From contig CANQBP010000011.1 of the NCBI GenBank assembly GCA_947589415.1, positions 1 to 54,152 on the forward strand: DNA of 54,152 nt, written 5' to 3'. The stretch is from an uncultured Clostridia bacterium. GTDB lineage: Bacteria; Bacillota; Clostridia; Oscillospirales; Acutalibacteraceae. Within the stretch, counting starts at the first letter, position 1. Each line of letters opens with the position of its first letter. Positions 5,649 through 15,477 of the stretch are shown here, one piece after another. The notes beneath the pieces are model-generated. The model had not been told where the DNA came from, ran no database searches, and saw nothing but the letters and a program-made list of their open reading frames with translations. A program made the translations under genes and the position numbers.

Positions 5649-5677
5649 TTGAAAATAGTATCGGAATATGGTATCAT
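5649..5677 (+). promoter_or_regulatory. Sigma-A promoter of the methionine synthase operon
   Basis: TTGAAA (5649-5654), a 17-base spacer and TATCAT (5672-5677). Transcription should begin near 5684, which rules out the in-frame ATG at 5668 and points to the TTG start at 5704. Confidence 0.75.
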
Positions 5678-5703
5678 TATTGTACGACAGTGAGGTGAGA
5701 AGT

Positions 5704-6309
5704 TTGAAAAGCAGTGATATTTTTATGATAAACGCAAAAGCGGAAAGTGTAGAAATAAATAAAAATGAGCTTGCTCAGCGTTTGAAAGTGGAACGCGGAT
5801 ACACAAATGATGTTATTGAGTCGTGTAAACGTTCGCTGCTCGGAATAATAAATTATAAATGCGTATATATACGCACTAATGTTGATTTAAGCGGGGGGAA
5901 TGTATGTGATTTCGGGTTTATGAAAGCATACAGCAAAAACCTCTACAAAAATCTTCACGGGTGCAGTGAAGCCTTCGTTATGGCCCTTACTGCGGGGATA
6001 GCCGTTGACAGAGAACTTGCAAAGCTGAAAATAACTTCACAAGCCGAATATTTTATAACCGATGCTGCCGCATCGGCGGCAATAGATTCGTTTTGCGATT
6101 ATGCCTGCAATATCATGGGGGACGGTCTTGACTGCGCCGTAAGGTTCAGTCCGGGATACGGGGATCTTTCCCTCACACTTCAAAAACCGCTGTTAGAAAG
6201 GCTTAACGCTCAATCACTTCTCGGAATAAGTCTTAGTCCGTCATATCTGATGACACCTATGAAATCTATAACTGCTGTAATGGGGATAAAAAATGAAAAA
6301 CATACTTGA
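5704..6309 (+). CDS. B12-dependent methionine synthase activation-domain protein
   Basis: A stand-alone protein of about 201 residues. Its C-terminal half carries the pattern RFSPGYGDLSLTLQ, then LLGISLSPSYLMTPMKS and ITAVMGI, which is the methionine synthase SAM-binding reactivation module. Clostridial MetH enzymes commonly lack this module, so a separate protein is thought to do reductive methylation of inactivated cob(II)alamin using SAM. The start TTG at 5704 follows GAGGTGA by 5 bases and lies downstream of the predicted transcription start, whereas the ATG at 5668 falls inside the promoter. It overlaps metH by 17 bases, so the two are translationally linked, which fits a dedicated partner. 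Confidence 0.82.
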   Translation: MKSSDIFMINAKAESVEINKNELAQRLKVERGYTNDVIESCKRSLLGIINYKCVYIRTNVDLSGGNVCDFGFMKAYSKNLYKNLHGCSEAFVMALTAGIAVDRELAKLKITSQAEYFITDAAASAAIDSFCDYACNIMGDGLDCAVRFSPGYGDLSLTLQKPLLERLNAQSLLGISLSPSYLMTPMKSITAVMGIKNEKHT

Positions 6310-8665
6310 ATTGATAAAAGAAAAAAGAATATATTTTGACGGGGGAACGGGAACGGTTCTCCAAAATATGGGACTTCCTGCCGGTCAGCCTCCGGAATTA
6401 TGGAACATAGCATATCCCGAAAAGATAATTGCCTTGCATAATATGTATTTTGATGCCGGTGCAAATATAGTAAAAACCAATACATTCGGCATTAACCGTG
6501 ATAAGTTTGAGAATTACGGCGAACTCATAAGGGCGGGAATAAAATGCGCAAAAACGGCTGCCGACGGCAGAAGTGATGCATATGTCGCTTTTGATATGGG
6601 GCCGACAGGTCAGCTTCTCGAACCGTTAGGTCAGATGAAATTTGAGGAGGCAGTATCGGTTTTTGCAGATAATGTAAAGGTTGCGTCAGAATGTGGTGCA
6701 GACCTTATACTGATAGAAACCATGAATGACAGTTATGAAACAAAAGCAGCCGTTATTGCCGCTAAGGAAAATTGTGATTTACCGATATTCGTTACAAATG
6801 TATATGACGAAAGCGGAAAACTGATGACAGGGGCAAATCCCGAAGCAATGATTGCTATGCTTGAGGGACTCGGAGTATCGGCTCTCGGAATGAATTGTTC
6901 ACTCGGCCCGGATATAATGCTCGGAATAATAGGGAAATTTAGGGAGTATTCCTCTATTCCCGTTATAGTTAATCCTAATGCGGGACTTCCGGAGGTGAGA
7001 AACGGGGAAACGGTATATAATATCAATGCAGATGAATTTTCTGATTATATGGCGGAAATTGCCGAACAGGGAGGTACGATACTCGGCGGGTGCTGTGGAA
7101 CTACACCCGAATTTATCGAGAAAATGATCAAAAAAACCGAGTCACTTCCGTATGTATTGCCCGATAAAAAGGAGCATACCTGCGTATCGTCATATACACA
7201 CGCTGTTTTTGTACATAAAGAACCTGTTCTAATCGGCGAGCGCATAAACCCTACCGGTAAATCTAAACTCAAAGAGGCACTCCGAAGCGGAAATCTCAAT
7301 TATATTCTAAACGAAGGTATAAAGCAGACAGATGCTGGAGCGCATATTCTCGATGTAAATGTGGGATTGCCCGAAATAGACGAAACAGAAATGATGATAA
7401 AATGCGTTTCAGCCCTGCAAGCCGTGACGGATTTACCGCTGCAAATAGATTCGACAAATTATGATACCCTCGAAAAAGCCGTAAGAATATATAACGGCAA
7501 ACCGCTCGTTAATTCTGTAAACGGTACGGAAGAAAGCATGAAAAATGTTTTCCCGATCGTTCGGAAATACGGCGGAGCATTGATTGCGCTTACAATTGAT
7601 GAGAAAGGCATACCCGATACGGCGCAGGGACGTGCGGATATAGCACGAAAAATTATCGAATGTGCGGATACATACGGCATATCAAAAAACAATATAATAG
7701 TTGACCCCCTTGCACTCACAATATCATCAAATCCCGAAAGTGCCGTCGTTACTCTCGAATCAATAAGACTAATACGTGACCTCGGTGTAAAAACGAGTCT
7801 TGGCATTTCCAATATTTCATTCGGTCTGCCCCAAAGAGATCTGATAACATCAACATTTTATTCAACCGCCCTCCAATGCGGTCTTAATTGTGCGATAATG
7901 AACCCTTTCTCTTCCGCCATGATGAATGTATATTATGCATACCGTGCGTTAAATATGCTCGACAACGGGTGCGTTGATTATATATCATACGCTTCCTCGG
8001 ATATCAATGCCCCGTCAAAACAGACCGAAATAAAATCCGAGGAAACACTTCGTTCAAGTATCGCAAGGGGACTTAAAGACAGCGCGGTTATACAAACCGA
8101 AAAATTATTGGAAGATAATACCGAACCGCTTGATATAATAAATAACCATATAATACCTGCTCTTAATGAAATAGGAACGGCGTTTGAACAAAAAAAGGCA
8201 TATTTGCCCCAGCTTCTTATGAGTGCTGATGCGGCAACATCTGCATTTGAGTGTGTTAAGAAAAAAATACCGTCCGAACAATCGGATAAAAGCAAGGCTA
8301 TCGTCCTTGCAACCGTAAAGGGGGATATACACGATATCGGTAAAAATATCGTCAAGGTACTTATGGAAAGCTACGGATTTACGGTTTACGACCTCGGCAG
8401 AGATGTACCCCCGGAGGAGATAAAACAATGCGCACTTGAACATAATTGTAAACTTGTCGGATTGAGTGCGCTAATGACAACAACCGTGCCGTCCATGGCT
8501 GAAACGATAAAGCTGCTTAACGAAACCGACAGAAATATTAAAATCATGGTGGGCGGCGCCGTACTTAATCAGGAATATGCCGATATGATAGGTGCGGATT
8601 TTTACGGTGCAGACGCTATGGACAGCGTGCGCTATGCGGAGAGTTTCTACGGCGGCAAGAAATAG
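6293..8665 (+). CDS. metH: Methionine synthase, cobalamin-dependent (short form)
   Basis: A 790-residue enzyme that methylates homocysteine using methyltetrahydrofolate via methylcobalamin. Domains in order: homocysteine-binding barrel (1-290) with the zinc cysteines near 202 (GMNCSLGP) and 266-267 (GGCCGTTP); pterin-binding barrel (about 310-570, starting VLIGERINPTGKSK); four-helix cap (about 590-660); cobalamin-binding Rossmann domain with GDIHDIGKNIV, whose histidine (near residue 680) is the lower axial ligand. It stops after the B12 domain, without the about 330-residue activation domain of the E. coli enzyme (1227 aa). That function is supplied by the upstream overlapping gene. Cytoplasmic; last step of methionine synthesis. 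No terminator is obvious before the next gene. Confidence 0.95.
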   Translation: MKNILELIKEKRIYFDGGTGTVLQNMGLPAGQPPELWNIAYPEKIIALHNMYFDAGANIVKTNTFGINRDKFENYGELIRAGIKCAKTAADGRSDAYVAFDMGPTGQLLEPLGQMKFEEAVSVFADNVKVASECGADLILIETMNDSYETKAAVIAAKENCDLPIFVTNVYDESGKLMTGANPEAMIAMLEGLGVSALGMNCSLGPDIMLGIIGKFREYSSIPVIVNPNAGLPEVRNGETVYNINADEFSDYMAEIAEQGGTILGGCCGTTPEFIEKMIKKTESLPYVLPDKKEHTCVSSYTHAVFVHKEPVLIGERINPTGKSKLKEALRSGNLNYILNEGIKQTDAGAHILDVNVGLPEIDETEMMIKCVSALQAVTDLPLQIDSTNYDTLEKAVRIYNGKPLVNSVNGTEESMKNVFPIVRKYGGALIALTIDEKGIPDTAQGRADIARKIIECADTYGISKNNIIVDPLALTISSNPESAVVTLESIRLIRDLGVKTSLGISNISFGLPQRDLITSTFYSTALQCGLNCAIMNPFSSAMMNVYYAYRALNMLDNGCVDYISYASSDINAPSKQTEIKSEETLRSSIARGLKDSAVIQTEKLLEDNTEPLDIINNHIIPALNEIGTAFEQKKAYLPQLLMSADAATSAFECVKKKIPSEQSDKSKAIVLATVKGDIHDIGKNIVKVLMESYGFTVYDLGRDVPPEEIKQCALEHNCKLVGLSALMTTTVPSMAETIKLLNETDRNIKIMVGGAVLNQEYADMIGADFYGADAMDSVRYAESFYGGKK

Positions 8666-10773: not shown

Positions 10774-13401
10774 ATGGCTAATAATAATGAAGTCGATGTT
10801 AAAATTACACCGGACGGTCTTGTTGAGGATCTCGACAGCTTTAATAAAAAGCTCCAGGAAGTAAGAGAAGCTCAAAAGATTTTTGCAACCTATACTCAAG
10901 AACAGGTTGATGAAATTTTTAAGGCCGCCGCAATAGCAGCCAATCAGGCACGTATTCCGCTTGCCGTTATGGCTGTTGAAGAAACAGGAATGGGAGTTAA
11001 GGAAGATAAGATAATAAAGAATCATTATGCTTCCGAGTATATATACAATGCATATAAAAATACCAAGACCTGCGGTGTGATCGAATATGATTCCGCATTC
11101 GGACTGAAAAAGATAGCAGAACCTATCGGAGTTATAGGGGCTGTTATTCCTACAACTAACCCGACATCTACCGCAATATTTAAGACACTTATCTGTCTTA
11201 AAACAAGAAACGGTATAATCATAAGCCCGCACCCCCGTGCAAAGAAATCCACTATTGCTGCCGCTAAGATTGTTCTTGATGCAGCAGTAAAAGCAGGTGC
11301 GCCGAAGGGGATAATCGGCTGGATAGATGTGCCGTCACTTGAACTTACAAACGAGCTTATGAGAAATGCAGATACAATTCTCGCAACCGGCGGACCCGGA
11401 ATGGTTAAGGCTGCATATTCTTCCGGTAAACCGGCTCTCGGAGTCGGAGCGGGCAATACACCCGTAATTATTGACAGTACTGCCGATATCAAGGTTGCTG
11501 TAAGCTCAATAATCCACTCTAAGACATTTGATAACGGTATGATCTGCGCATCGGAGCAGAGTGTTACGGTTCTGTCGGACATATATGATGAGGTTAAGAA
11601 GGAGTTTGCGGAAAGAGGTTGCTATTTCCTCAAGCCCGATGAACTTGATAAGGTAAGAAAAACGATTATTATTAACGGTGCGCTCAATGCAAAGATTGTC
11701 GGACAAAAGGCGCACACTATTGCAAAGCTCGCCGGAGTTGATGTTCCCGAAGATACAAAAATTCTTATCGGTGAGGTAGAATCAGTAGATATAAGCGAAG
11801 AGTTTGCACATGAAAAGCTCTCTCCCGTACTTGCCATGTATAAGGCTGAAACCTTTGACGAGGCACTTGAGAAAGCTGCGCAGCTCGTTGCTGACGGAGG
11901 ATACGGTCATACCTCTTCACTGTATATACACCCCGCACAACAGGAAAAGATTGAAAAGCACTATAATGCGATGAAAACCTGCCGAATACTCATAAATACA
12001 CCGTCATCACACGGCGGTATCGGTGACTTGTATAACTTCAAGCTGACACCGTCACTCACACTCGGCTGCGGTTCGTGGGGCGGAAACTCCGTATCGGAAA
12101 ATGTCGGAATTAAGCATCTTTTGAATATTAAGAGCGTAGCCGAACGCAGAGAAAATATGCTTTGGTTCAGAGCGCCGCAAAAGGTATATTTCAAAAAAGG
12201 CTGTATGCCCGTTGCCCTTGACGAACTCGGATCTGTTATGGGAAAGAAAAAGGCATTTATCGTAACTGATGAATTTCTTTATAAAAACGGCTATGTAAAG
12301 CCCATTGAAGATAAACTCGACGAGCTTGGAATACAGCATACCGCATTTTATAATGTTCAGCCCGACCCGACTCTCGCCTCTGCAAAAGAGGGTGCGGAAG
12401 CTATGCGCCTTTTTGAACCCGATACAATAATAGCACTCGGCGGAGGTTCGGCAATGGATGCCGGAAAGATAATGTGGGTACTTTATGAACACCCCGAAGC
12501 TGACTTCCTTGATATGGCAATGCGTTTCATGGATATCAGAAAGAGAATTTACACGTTCCCGAAAATGGGTGAAAAGGCTTACTTTATTGCTATTCCTACT
12601 TCATCGGGTACAGGCTCCGAGGTTACTCCGTTTGCCGTTATCACGGACGAAAAGACAGGAATTAAGTATCCGCTTGCCGATTATGAACTTATGCCGAACA
12701 TGGCAATTATTGATGCAGACAATATGATGAACCAGCCGAAAGGTCTTACAAGTGCATCGGGTATAGATGCTTTAACACACGCACTTGAGGCTTATGCATC
12801 TATAATGGCTACTCCGTACACGGACGGTCTTGCACTGCAGGCAATGAAAACTATATTTGAGTATTTGCCGTCTGCATATGAAAACGGTGCGAATGATCCT
12901 ATTGCCCGTGAAAAAATGGCTAATGCATCAACAATGGCAGGTATGGCGTTTGCCAATGCATTCCTCGGTGTATGCCATTCAATGGCTCATAAACTCGGTG
13001 CTTATCACCATATACCGCACGGTATTGCCAATGCACTTCTTATATCCTATGTCCTCAGATATAACGCCGTTCCGGTTCCTCCGAAAATGGGAACGTTTTC
13101 GCAGTATGCATACCCGCATACGCTTGAAAGATATGTTGAATGTGCTAATTTCTGCGGCGTGTACGGAAAAGACGATAATGAAACTCTTGAACTCTTCATT
13201 CAAAAAATTGAGGAACTCAAAGAGAGATGCGGAGTCAGGAAAACTATTGCGGACTACGGTGTAAAAGAAGAAGATTTCCTTGCAACACTCGATGAAATGG
13301 TTGTTAATGCTTTTGACGACCAGTGTACCGGAGCTAATCCGAGGTATCCGCTTTTCTATGAAATTAAGGAAATATATCTTAAAGCATACTATGGTAAATA
13401 A
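10774..13401 (+). CDS. adhE: Bifunctional acetaldehyde-CoA/alcohol dehydrogenase AdhE
   Basis: An 875-residue cytoplasmic enzyme that reduces acetyl-CoA to acetaldehyde and then ethanol, consuming two NADH. The N-terminal aldehyde dehydrogenase domain (1-440) has its catalytic cysteine near 257 (NGMICASEQS). A linker leads to the iron alcohol dehydrogenase domain (from M462, MLWFRAPQKVYFKKGC) with the NAD loop GGGSAMDAGK, PTSSGTGSEVTP, and the four metal ligands Asp665, His669, His735 and His749 (GIDALTH, GVCHSMAH, HHIPHG). Full length for the family, so both activities should be present. AdhE proteins assemble into spirosome filaments. A consensus promoter overlapped by a Rex-type operator precedes it, and a partial terminator separates it from a degenerate copy of its own ADH domain. 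Confidence 0.97.
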   Translation: MANNNEVDVKITPDGLVEDLDSFNKKLQEVREAQKIFATYTQEQVDEIFKAAAIAANQARIPLAVMAVEETGMGVKEDKIIKNHYASEYIYNAYKNTKTCGVIEYDSAFGLKKIAEPIGVIGAVIPTTNPTSTAIFKTLICLKTRNGIIISPHPRAKKSTIAAAKIVLDAAVKAGAPKGIIGWIDVPSLELTNELMRNADTILATGGPGMVKAAYSSGKPALGVGAGNTPVIIDSTADIKVAVSSIIHSKTFDNGMICASEQSVTVLSDIYDEVKKEFAERGCYFLKPDELDKVRKTIIINGALNAKIVGQKAHTIAKLAGVDVPEDTKILIGEVESVDISEEFAHEKLSPVLAMYKAETFDEALEKAAQLVADGGYGHTSSLYIHPAQQEKIEKHYNAMKTCRILINTPSSHGGIGDLYNFKLTPSLTLGCGSWGGNSVSENVGIKHLLNIKSVAERRENMLWFRAPQKVYFKKGCMPVALDELGSVMGKKKAFIVTDEFLYKNGYVKPIEDKLDELGIQHTAFYNVQPDPTLASAKEGAEAMRLFEPDTIIALGGGSAMDAGKIMWVLYEHPEADFLDMAMRFMDIRKRIYTFPKMGEKAYFIAIPTSSGTGSEVTPFAVITDEKTGIKYPLADYELMPNMAIIDADNMMNQPKGLTSASGIDALTHALEAYASIMATPYTDGLALQAMKTIFEYLPSAYENGANDPIAREKMANASTMAGMAFANAFLGVCHSMAHKLGAYHHIPHGIANALLISYVLRYNAVPVPPKMGTFSQYAYPHTLERYVECANFCGVYGKDDNETLELFIQKIEELKERCGVRKTIADYGVKEEDFLATLDEMVVNAFDDQCTGANPRYPLFYEIKEIYLKAYYGK

Positions 13402-13412
13402 TTAAAAATTAC

Positions 13413-13458
13413 AGGTTCTGTCATGACAGTATGCACAGGTTATGGCAGAACCTTTATT
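13413..13458 (+). terminator. Hairpin between adhE and its paralog (probable leaky terminator)
   Basis: AGGTTCTGTCAT (13413-13424) pairs with ATGGCAGAACCT (13442-13453), with one G-T pair and a 17-base loop. The stem is followed by TTATTCTTAT, which is not a clean T-run. I expect partial termination, which would lower expression of the downstream two genes relative to adhE while keeping them on the same transcript. Confidence 0.55.
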
Positions 13459-13484
13459 CTTATATAAACGGAAGGTGTAGAATA

Positions 13485-14585
13485 ATGCTTTGGTTCAGAA
13501 TACCCGAAAAGATATATTTTAAAAAGGGCTGTATGTGGTCATCGCTTGACGAATTGAAAACCGTATATGGCAAAAAAAGAGCATTTATCGTTGCTGACAA
13601 TGAATTATATAAAAAAGGTTATGTTAATTCTATCGGGAGAAAACTCAAGTCTGTCGGAATACAATGTACGGTATTCAGTAACATACCCTCTGAAATTACA
13701 TTTGAATGTATTGCCGAGGGGGCAAAGGCTATGAGCCTTTTCGGAGCTGATACCGTGATTTCATTTGGAACATATAAATCGGCAAATGCTGCGAAACTAA
13801 TGCGGGCATTTTATGAAAAACCGGATTTGAAACCGAAAGATCTGATTGAAAAATTTGTCGATTTACGAAATACCGAGGAAATATTCTCAAAGGAAAACAG
13901 AAAATCACTTCTTGCCGTAATTCCTGTTTTGTACGGAAACGGCTCGGAGGTGACACCGTATGCGTTTGTCAAAGACGAAAAGAACGACAGCATACATATA
14001 GCTGCCAATTACAGCCTTATGCCCGATATTAGTATTATTGACTCGGATTATACCTGCGAACTTCCCGAAATACTCGATAATGCTCCGGGCTTCGCTCAGC
14101 TTACACTTGCAATTTCCGCATATATATCGGAATATTCATCTGAATATACGGACGGGTTTGTAATCAAGGCTGTTAAGAATATTTTTGAATATCTCCCTTA
14201 TATATATCAAAACGGTACAAGGAATGTAATCGCAGAGGAAAAAATATCCGAGGCTTCGGCTATGGCAGGTATTGCCGCTGCAAATACGGATGCGGGTCTG
14301 CTTTGCGGTTTGGATATTATTTATGGAGGTCTTGTTTGTGCGGTTTTGCTGCCTTGTGTTATTCGCCGTCTTATAAAAGACAATGCAAATATCGCCGAAA
14401 AACTGACTGAAATGGCTAAATTGCTGGGTATGAATGATGCAGAGGCTCTAATATCAAACATTGAAGAACTTAGGGATAAATGCGGTCTTGCTAAAAGTAT
14501 TTCCGAGCTGAAAACAGAAAAAGCGGACTATTTCTCTGCCATTGAGAAACTGATAAACCCTGTACTTAGGGAAGCCTATGAATGA
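13485..14585 (+). CDS. Catalytically dead paralog of the AdhE alcohol dehydrogenase domain
   Basis: 366 residues, colinear with AdhE from its M462. Both start MLWFR, and the first 15 bases of coding DNA are identical. KKGC, LDEL, KK.AFIV, YVN.I, GSEVTP, YTDG and IFEYLP blocks are retained. Every catalytic feature is gone. The NAD loop GGGSAMDAGK reads FGTYKSANAAK, the ligand block GIDALTH reads GFAQLTL, and the region with the last two histidines reads GLLCGLDIIYGG with about six residues lost nearby. No metal ligand remains. Yet the frame is open throughout, with a GGAAGGTG ribosome binding site, so it is not simple decay. I infer a pseudoenzyme from duplication of the neighbouring adhE 3' half, possibly a structural partner or modulator of AdhE. 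It overlaps the next gene by 8 bases. Confidence 0.85.
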   Translation: MLWFRIPEKIYFKKGCMWSSLDELKTVYGKKRAFIVADNELYKKGYVNSIGRKLKSVGIQCTVFSNIPSEITFECIAEGAKAMSLFGADTVISFGTYKSANAAKLMRAFYEKPDLKPKDLIEKFVDLRNTEEIFSKENRKSLLAVIPVLYGNGSEVTPYAFVKDEKNDSIHIAANYSLMPDISIIDSDYTCELPEILDNAPGFAQLTLAISAYISEYSSEYTDGFVIKAVKNIFEYLPYIYQNGTRNVIAEEKISEASAMAGIAAANTDAGLLCGLDIIYGGLVCAVLLPCVIRRLIKDNANIAEKLTEMAKLLGMNDAEALISNIEELRDKCGLAKSISELKTEKADYFSAIEKLINPVLREAYE

Positions 14586-15477
14586 CAAGGATTTTATCGT
14601 ATGCTCGTTATGTCCGAGAAATTGTAATGCAGTAAGAACGGCTGAAAAGGGCAGAGGTTTTTGTAAAGCGGGGTATCTTCCTAAAATAGCAAGGGCAGCT
14701 CCGCATATGTGGGAAGAACCGTGTATAAGCGGAAAAAACGGGTCAGGAACGATTTTCTTTTCGGGATGCGTGCTTTCGTGTGTATTCTGTCAAAATCAAA
14801 AAATAAGCTCGCAGGGTCACGGTAAGAGCATAACCGTTTCGGAACTTATCGGGTATATTAAAAAACTTGAGGAGCTGCAAGTACATAATATCAACCTTGT
14901 AAGTCCCACGCCGTATGTTGATAGTATTATTGAGGCATTGTCACATTATAAACCGTCCGTACCCGTCGTTTACAATACGGGAGGATATGAGAAAGCCGAA
15001 ACAATTAAACGGCTTGAGGGAATGATTGACATATATCTGCCGGATCTCAAATATATACGGAATGATATTTCAGCGAAGTATTCGGGTGCATCCAATTACT
15101 TTGAATATGCATCACGGGCATTGGAGGAAATGGTGCGTCAGACCGGAAAGCCGGTTTTTGACGATAACGGAATGATGTTAAAAGGTACGATCGTAAGACA
15201 TTTAATTCTGCCGCAGAATACAAGAAATTCGATCGAGGTCATAAAATATCTTGATGATACCTTCGGGGATAACATTCTGGTTAGCCTTATGGGGCAGTAT
15301 ATTCCCGTTGCCAATGCTAAAGATTACCCCGAAATAAACCGCTGTATCACCCCGCGAGAGTATGATAAGGTACTTAACGAACTGACAAAAACGTCACTTG
15401 ACGGCTTTGCGCAGGAACTTAATTCTGCCAATAAGTCATATATACCCGATTTCAATATAGATGACACAATAAAATAG
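14578..15477 (+). CDS. PflA-like radical SAM protein (COG1313 type)
   Basis: 299 residues. The radical SAM cluster motif CxxxCxxC is at Cys64, Cys68 and Cys71 (GCVLSCVFCQNQ). A second cysteine set near the N-terminus (Cys9, Cys12, Cys16, Cys29: CSLCPRNC and GFCKAG) is typical of the COG1313 group, which resembles pyruvate formate-lyase activating enzyme but has no established substrate. Downstream motifs NLVSPTPYV, VVYNTGGYE, IYLPDLKY and LPQNT fit this group. The start ATG overlaps the stop of the dead ADH gene by 8 bases, so translation is coupled. No glycyl radical enzyme gene is adjacent. The closest context is the dead ADH-like gene, so a joint role with AdhE is a hypothesis only. Confidence 0.85.
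   Translation: MNDKDFIVCSLCPRNCNAVRTAEKGRGFCKAGYLPKIARAAPHMWEEPCISGKNGSGTIFFSGCVLSCVFCQNQKISSQGHGKSITVSELIGYIKKLEELQVHNINLVSPTPYVDSIIEALSHYKPSVPVVYNTGGYEKAETIKRLEGMIDIYLPDLKYIRNDISAKYSGASNYFEYASRALEEMVRQTGKPVFDDNGMMLKGTIVRHLILPQNTRNSIEVIKYLDDTFGDNILVSLMGQYIPVANAKDYPEINRCITPREYDKVLNELTKTSLDGFAQELNSANKSYIPDFNIDDTIK

Follow-up and report, generated by a model that had tools for sequence, protein, structure and literature searches.

A selected, catalytically dead copy of the AdhE alcohol dehydrogenase domain encoded behind adhE is a candidate spirosome partner

Directly 3' of adhE in the 54,152-nucleotide stretch of DNA analyzed here (the window), which comes from an uncultured member of the Acutalibacteraceae, lies a gene whose product, referred to as pADH, is a pseudoenzyme that arose when the 3' half of adhE was duplicated in place. 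Comparison with related genomes showed that pADH is held by purifying selection. Judging from its sequence, we put at about even the chance that pADH pairs with the alcohol dehydrogenase (ADH) domain of AdhE and in doing so ends the AdhE filament, or spirosome, or holds back a free AdhE dimer.

Results

The adhE locus of the window

The features of the locus that are used in the text are as follows.

10774..13401, + strand: adhE, bifunctional aldehyde-alcohol dehydrogenase of 875 residues (P0002), scoring 1387 bits against NF010378 (cut-off 951)
Within 10774..13401, + strand: AdhE Y682 and M724, the spirosome knob and pocket positions by alignment
13413..13453, + strand: hairpin between the adhE and pADH cistrons with a 15-pair outer stem, from folding without a shuffled control
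13470..13477, + strand: ribosome binding site GGAAGGTG, identified by eye
13485..14585, + strand: pADH (P0001), 366 residues, catalytically dead copy of the AdhE ADH domain
13485..13556, + strand: pADH residues 1-24, N-terminal arm and β1 strand, with pocket residues I10 and F12 equivalent to E. coli I460 and F462 (passages in PMC6778083 and PMC8836905)
13767..13778, + strand: degenerate NAD glycine loop, GTYK replacing GGGS, from alignments
14094..14108, + strand: lost metal ligands, A204 and L208 for AdhE D665 and H669, from alignments
14145..14147, + strand: Y221, spirosome knob position (E. coli F670), from alignment and a passage in PMC6778083
14271..14273, + strand: I263, pocket position (E. 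coli I712), from alignment
14578..15477, + strand: gene for a radical-SAM protein of 299 residues, overlapping pADH by 8 bases

The adhE and pADH genes are spaced by 83 bases, and translation of the pADH frame gives 366 residues with no internal stop. An alternative ATG at 13431, 54 bases earlier in the same open frame, would yield a protein of 384 residues; the start at 13485 is preferred because the ribosome binding site, which by eye sits 7 bases 5' of that ATG, fits it. The radical-SAM product is presumably PflX-like, so a link to pyruvate formate-lyase is conceivable. The genome contains one pyruvate formate-lyase gene, located on a different contig (L112, G000:C1:178827-181061). Elsewhere in the window, at 5668-8665, an ORF of 213 residues is followed by one of 790 residues; by eye, we take the pair to resemble a free-standing activation domain of methionine synthase followed by a short MetH core.

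Homology of pADH to the ADH domain of AdhE

BLASTP placed M1 of pADH at M462 of the AdhE encoded in the window, with identity at 153 of 386 positions (40%; E 1e-85). A preliminary description of this DNA had begun the match at the same residue and had listed MLWFR, KKGC, GSEVTP, YTDG, and IFEYLP as motifs common to the two proteins, and both BLASTP and the alignment agree with it. The N- and C-domains of iron-containing ADHs (Fe-ADHs) were recognized in pADH by Pfam (PF00465, 100.4 bits with a cut-off of 31.3; PF25137, 56.2 bits with a cut-off of 27), with scores lower than those of the same domains in AdhE. Against the AdhE profile NF010378, pADH scored 254 bits over the ADH part alone, short of the cut-off of 951. 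ErcA (NF041833), an alcohol-dehydrogenase-like protein annotated as regulatory, also has the Fe-ADH fold; pADH is nearer to AdhE than to ErcA, for which it reached 108.4 bits (cut-off 550).

At the positions of the four AdhE metal ligands, D665, H669, H735, and H749, pADH has A204, L208, C274, and G281, and its glycine-loop region reads FGTYK, in line with the earlier claim that the ligands and the NAD loop are all replaced. That description had also held that ligands retained under an alternative alignment would make the protein an active enzyme; none was regained for the window pADH in any of four alignments, in which the last two ligands fall in a gapped, poorly aligned stretch. Compared with active Fe-containing (group III) ADHs, pADH has the homology and lacks the Asp-His-His-His ligands and the GGGS loop. 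It combines descent from an active enzyme, loss of the catalytic residues, and purifying selection, as a pseudoenzyme does.

Distribution of pADH in the genus and the family

We searched 64 genomes of the genus with pADH and again with a profile of a short N-domain form (mini), and the adhE region was read in 58 of them, the window included. A pADH-type ORF directly 3' of adhE was found in 33 of the 64 genomes. In 24 of these it is full or near-full, although cut by a contig end in two (G026 and G053), and the complete full copies span 294-382 residues when counted from the residue aligned to AdhE M462. The remaining nine carry the mini form of 116-130 residues, G002 and G027 having been recovered by the mini-profile search. 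In another 21 genomes adhE is followed by the radical-SAM gene at a distance of 43-285 bases with no pADH between, and these non-carriers have no match to the mini elsewhere in the genome at E 1e-8. A contig end hides the locus in five genomes (G005, G021, G045, G052, and G057), and five (G004, G022, G035, G039, and G063) have no placeable adhE or pADH match. Two carriers have an extra ORF between pADH and the radical-SAM gene, of 307 residues and lipoprotein-like by eye in one (L046 2443-3366; G016) and of 170 residues in the other (L074 2714-3226; G048).

The family was sampled with 150 genomes, 148 of them from outside the genus, at E 1e-25, a threshold that minis would escape. No side-by-side pair of matches occurred in the 148 genomes among the matches listed, and pADH stood behind adhE at none of the 20 loci read in other genera (20 genomes, 19 genera), including that of G083, where 1.3 kb 3' of adhE is readable. 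At one of these 20 loci (G147) a radical-SAM gene lies near adhE. As far as sampled, pADH is a feature of one genus.

Loss of the catalytic half in full pADH

Residues are numbered hereafter as in E. coli AdhE (from NC_000913). Of the four metal ligands, D653 and H737 are present in none of the 23 full copies, H723 in one, and H657 in 12; in a second alignment, the third ligand is present in no full copy. The GGGS glycine loop is found in three of the 23, and some copies retain SGTGSE. Positions 721-730, 751-770, and 821-868 are mostly gaps in full pADH and positions 811-820 are half gaps, so that loop 3, which contacts AlDH, and the C-terminal CTGANPR are gone. The second helix bundle, which comprises the metal site, loop 3, and the C-terminus, is absent, and loop 2 (561-589) is free of gaps. 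An active dehydrogenase with a rearranged metal site could appeal to H657 and GGGS where these survive; given the universal absence of D653 and H737, and the deletion or unalignability of CTGANPR and of the stretch from H723 to H737, we consider this reading highly improbable.

Purifying selection on pADH

All 31 complete copies (22 full and nine mini) are intact from start to stop, and most are preceded by a stretch that resembles a ribosome binding site by eye. Stops in G009, G010, G024, and G025 were considered as possible disruptions and dismissed; each is the terminal codon of its ORF, because the match extends to or beyond it. Under a codon model, dN/dS of pADH was 0.059-0.337 in 21 of 21 pairs, with a median of about 0.13, and the gain in lnL over dN/dS = 1 ranged from 5.4 to 102.6, the mini pairs being the weakest; the pairs were picked for closeness and are not independent, and for some of them dS has reached saturation (as high as 4.3 for pADH and 10 for the radical-SAM gene). 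The corresponding dN/dS values were 0.021-0.156 for the radical-SAM gene (median about 0.08 over 17 pairs) and 0.005-0.051 for the AdhE ADH domain (21 pairs). Thus pADH is under constraint, if somewhat less tightly than its radical-SAM neighbor. The preliminary description had concluded from an open frame that selection kept the gene; a single genome is insufficient for that step, and it is the comparison across species that confirms the selection. The signs of decay that it had named, dN/dS near 1 and frameshifts in sister genomes, were looked for in these copies and not found.

A decaying pseudogene left by a tandem duplication would diverge rapidly, and in the window's four-species clade dN is indeed 0.10-0.32 for pADH against 0.005-0.010 for AdhE, about 10- to 54-fold higher; the large internal deletions and the 21 species without pADH point the same way. 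Nevertheless, the low dN/dS of every pair, the intactness of every complete copy, and the lack of any loss within the carrier clades of the tree described below led us to reject decay for the copies seen, and the probability that we leave to it is negligible.

Origin by duplication in place

A tree rooted on nine AdhE sequences of other genera, for which we dropped the minis, G026, four very long pADH rows, and part of the AdhE rows, placed 19 full pADH in one clade (support 100/100) nested within the AdhE of the genus (99/96). In an unrooted tree of the ADH domain with 23 full copies, pADH is set apart from AdhE (100/100). In the ADH-domain tree the non-carrier G031 adjoins the minis G003 and G018 (98/93). 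An N-domain tree of 99 columns shows the minis as one clade (100/100), on a long branch, amid the full pADH and beside G009 (97/93); full and mini forms make up a single side of this tree with support of 14/62. Their position argues that the minis are likely to descend from the same duplication as the full form.

The carriers were also placed on a tree of AdhE plus the radical-SAM protein (58 rows, rooted on G008 for drawing). One clade (91/99) consists of 23 members that all have the full form; in another (100/100), all eight readable members have the mini, and G057 is unread. G055 has the full form and lies outside both carrier clades, which reflects either a deeper origin followed by losses or a transfer. 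The three states (full, mini, and none) cost 3 changes on this tree, compared with 22.5 when labels were shuffled. In a quick AdhE tree, carriers of both forms fall into a single clade of 30 rows (support 94). A clean count of losses was attempted and given up, as the trees conflict on whether there are one or two carrier clades and on the placement of G031.

The DNA behind the genes bears on the same question. The motif TTTTCTCAAATTTGCAATT was chosen by eye from the same data and scanned in 50 loci with up to four mismatches. Four non-carriers (G008, G036, G037, and G051) have it 5-7 bases past the stop codon of adhE. Eight full carriers have it 5-10 bases past the stop codon of pADH, as does the mini carrier G003 at 25 bases, and in none of the carriers among the 50 loci does it lie just behind adhE. 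There were six more matches elsewhere and none near either stop in the other loci, and a simple shuffle gave one match. Across these 13 loci, what was the 3' UTR of adhE is now found behind pADH in the nine carriers, as a tandem duplication would be expected to leave it.

Residues of the spirosome joint in pADH

In the passages cited here, AdhE is described as dimerizing via AlDH, with the dimers linked into spirosomes by ADH-ADH contacts (PMC7080775 and PMC7286902) and with loops 2 and 3 forming the AlDH-ADH contact (PMC7080775). At the joint, F670 inserts as a knob into a pocket of I460, F462, and I712 (PMC6778083); loss of the knob breaks spirosomes. The E. coli ADH domain alone is a dimer resembling that of the spirosome (PMC7470043), and β1 strands pair across the dimer in an Fe-ADH (PMC8836905). 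Spirosomes are also formed by C. thermocellum AdhE, whose knob is Tyr, and V. cholerae AdhE forms longer ones when its knob and a second residue are changed to those of E. coli (PMC12204686). Among solved chains, the window AdhE scored highest with the C. thermocellum spirosome AdhE 8UHW, and nearly equally with 13he.

The knob position is Tyr in all 23 full pADH and in all 55 AdhE rows of the genus, whereas the I712 position separates the two, with Ile in every full pADH (23) and Met in every AdhE row (55). At F462, 19 full copies have Phe and four have Ile, and I460 is loosely kept (V in 11, I in six, L in five, and T in one). The minis have Ile460 and Phe462 in seven of seven and stop short of the knob. 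The inter-turn contacts R488, N492, and Q821 are lost in pADH and are also absent from the AdhE of the genus. Of the 24 columns of the arm, 12 are conserved in at least 21 of the 23 full copies; the remaining N-domain has 36 such columns of 166, the first helix bundle has 15 of 76, and the part beyond residue 716 has none of 152. By these counts only the arm and single positions stand out, the second bundle is lost, and the first bundle as a whole is no better conserved than the N-domain.

Gene conversion was considered as the means by which the arm of the full form is maintained and was rejected, the fraction of shared residues with identical codons there being 0.61 within genomes and 0.57 between them. 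Outside the arm, the within- and between-genome fractions are 0.51/0.46, 0.49/0.47, and 0.52/0.47, and for the minis the fractions within the genome alone are 0.55, 0.64, and 0.45. A single-chain AlphaFold model of pADH from a four-row alignment was too poor for use (pLDDT 59.9; pTM 0.49; arm unresolved).

The preliminary description had tied pADH to the ADH-ADH contacts of spirosomes. That tie is plausible and specific at the level of sequence: the four joint residues named in the cited passages, which make this a small test since no others are named there, are largely kept, and the catalytic half is gone. Several points speak against pairing with AdhE. The dimer surface that is kept could as readily serve a homodimer of pADH, the fixation of Ile in place of Met in the pocket might be a move away from AdhE, and 21 species of the genus have adhE and no pADH. 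The mini, being devoid of the knob and of the helix bundle, cannot build the whole joint.

Intergenic hairpins and gene order

Every one of the 24 full-type genomes has a gap between adhE and pADH that folds into a hairpin (without a shuffled control); by eye, most of these hairpins have no T run, and the arms of several are GGCTCTGTC-like. Hairpins likewise follow adhE in 21 of 21 gaps of non-carriers. Six of the seven minis measured start 3-15 bases past adhE with no hairpin. The mini of G046 is separated from adhE by a run of short ATGTRCA-type repeats that forms one long hairpin (L072 3302-3442). Given these differences in the gap, the dose of pADH relative to AdhE may differ between species with the full form and those with the mini. 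That the adhE terminator keeps the pADH dose low is only partly supported, because the gaps of non-carriers fold too and most of the minis measured have no hairpin.

On the other side of pADH, all 18 carrier gaps folded (the window's clade excluded) have a T-tailed, terminator-like hairpin by eye; under a stricter scan, only 10 of 29 carriers have one shortly after pADH, compared with 18 of 21 non-carriers that have one shortly after adhE. The four species of the window's clade instead have a pADH that runs up to the radical-SAM gene or overlaps it (gene starts extrapolated from tblastn). This arrangement would suit a pADH that forms an independent homodimer with a job unrelated to AdhE, such as sensing a ligand or serving the radical-SAM protein. 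The surface in question commonly makes Fe-ADH dimers, and the GGGS or SGTGSE kept in some copies suggests that some may bind NAD. We nevertheless find such a homodimer unlikely, as pADH is always behind adhE (33 of 33 carriers), the hairpins described above lie between it and the radical-SAM gene in the carrier gaps folded, other genes may do so as well (G016 and G048), and the NAD loop is not conserved across pADH. The idea of a ligand sensor, raised in the preliminary description, is weakened by the rarity of GGGS among full copies and by the lack of a C-terminal domain in the mini.

Discussion

In the reading that we favor, pADH would bind the ADH domain of AdhE through the ADH-ADH joint in the way that ADH domains pair along the spirosome. 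Having no AlDH half, it would be unable to prolong the chain, and each pairing would either terminate a filament or keep back a free AdhE dimer. Spirosome length would be set in this manner, and with it the balance of the forward and reverse reactions of AdhE; section 3.4 of PMC12173503 describes short spirosomes as better in the reverse reaction and equal in the forward one. The mini form would fill the same role using little beyond the β1 edge strand and the Rossmann core. It had been suggested beforehand that the dead copy may cap, space, or regulate the filaments, and of these roles a cap appears the best fit because the AlDH half and the AlDH-contacting loop 3 are absent. The retention of β1 and the knob, the loss of loop 3, the metal bundle, and the AlDH half, and the constant location behind adhE together give pADH, we infer, the look of a chain terminator. 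The fuller scenario, that the genus evolved a dedicated end-cap for AdhE spirosomes from a duplicate of the joining domain of AdhE, with the active site disabled and the chain-extending half removed, and that one branch pared it to an edge-strand protein of 116 residues, is offered tentatively, as somewhat less probable than its opposite.

The joint residues and the gene order would equally serve a prozyme-like allosteric subunit, which would pair with the ADH domain of AdhE and alter its catalysis or cofactor response, with filament length a side effect. Dead paralogues of this kind exist: as described in the cited passages, the T. brucei AdoMetDC prozyme (PMC5201418) and the dead deoxyhypusine synthase (PMC3663545) are likewise kept beside an active oligomeric parent, which they bind and activate. 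Those systems are eukaryotic and are described there without filaments, whereas pADH is so far a putative binder of AdhE and its gene immediately follows that of its parent. No allosteric path is indicated by the sequence of pADH, and we rate this possibility as low.

Relative to the ADH domain of AdhE (E. coli; C. thermocellum 8UHW), its parent, pADH has the same strand, Rossmann domain, first bundle, and knob and pocket positions, but is a stand-alone gene product with no AlDH half, metal site, loop 3, or C-terminal motif. Pseudo-GTPase septins are comparable in that degenerate nucleotide-binding subunits of a polymer are changed at the assembly interface; they differ in being cytoskeletal, eukaryotic members of the polymer itself (passage in PMC10731463).

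Among the papers listed by literature searches, none fitted a pseudoenzyme of AdhE or a regulator of spirosomes. If pADH is indeed a cap that pairs with AdhE, it would be, to our knowledge, the first separately encoded spirosome regulator.

Spirosome length has been described as varying with the expression host (passage in PMC12204686), and a cap in the form of pADH would make testable what sets this length and what length does. A natural mimic of the ADH domain would also be a tool for shortening filaments in vitro and in cells with AdhE left unmutated, and the graded series of full, truncated, and mini forms would tell which part of the joint suffices. More broadly, pADH would be a case in which the regulation of an enzyme filament arose via gene duplication and catalytic loss.
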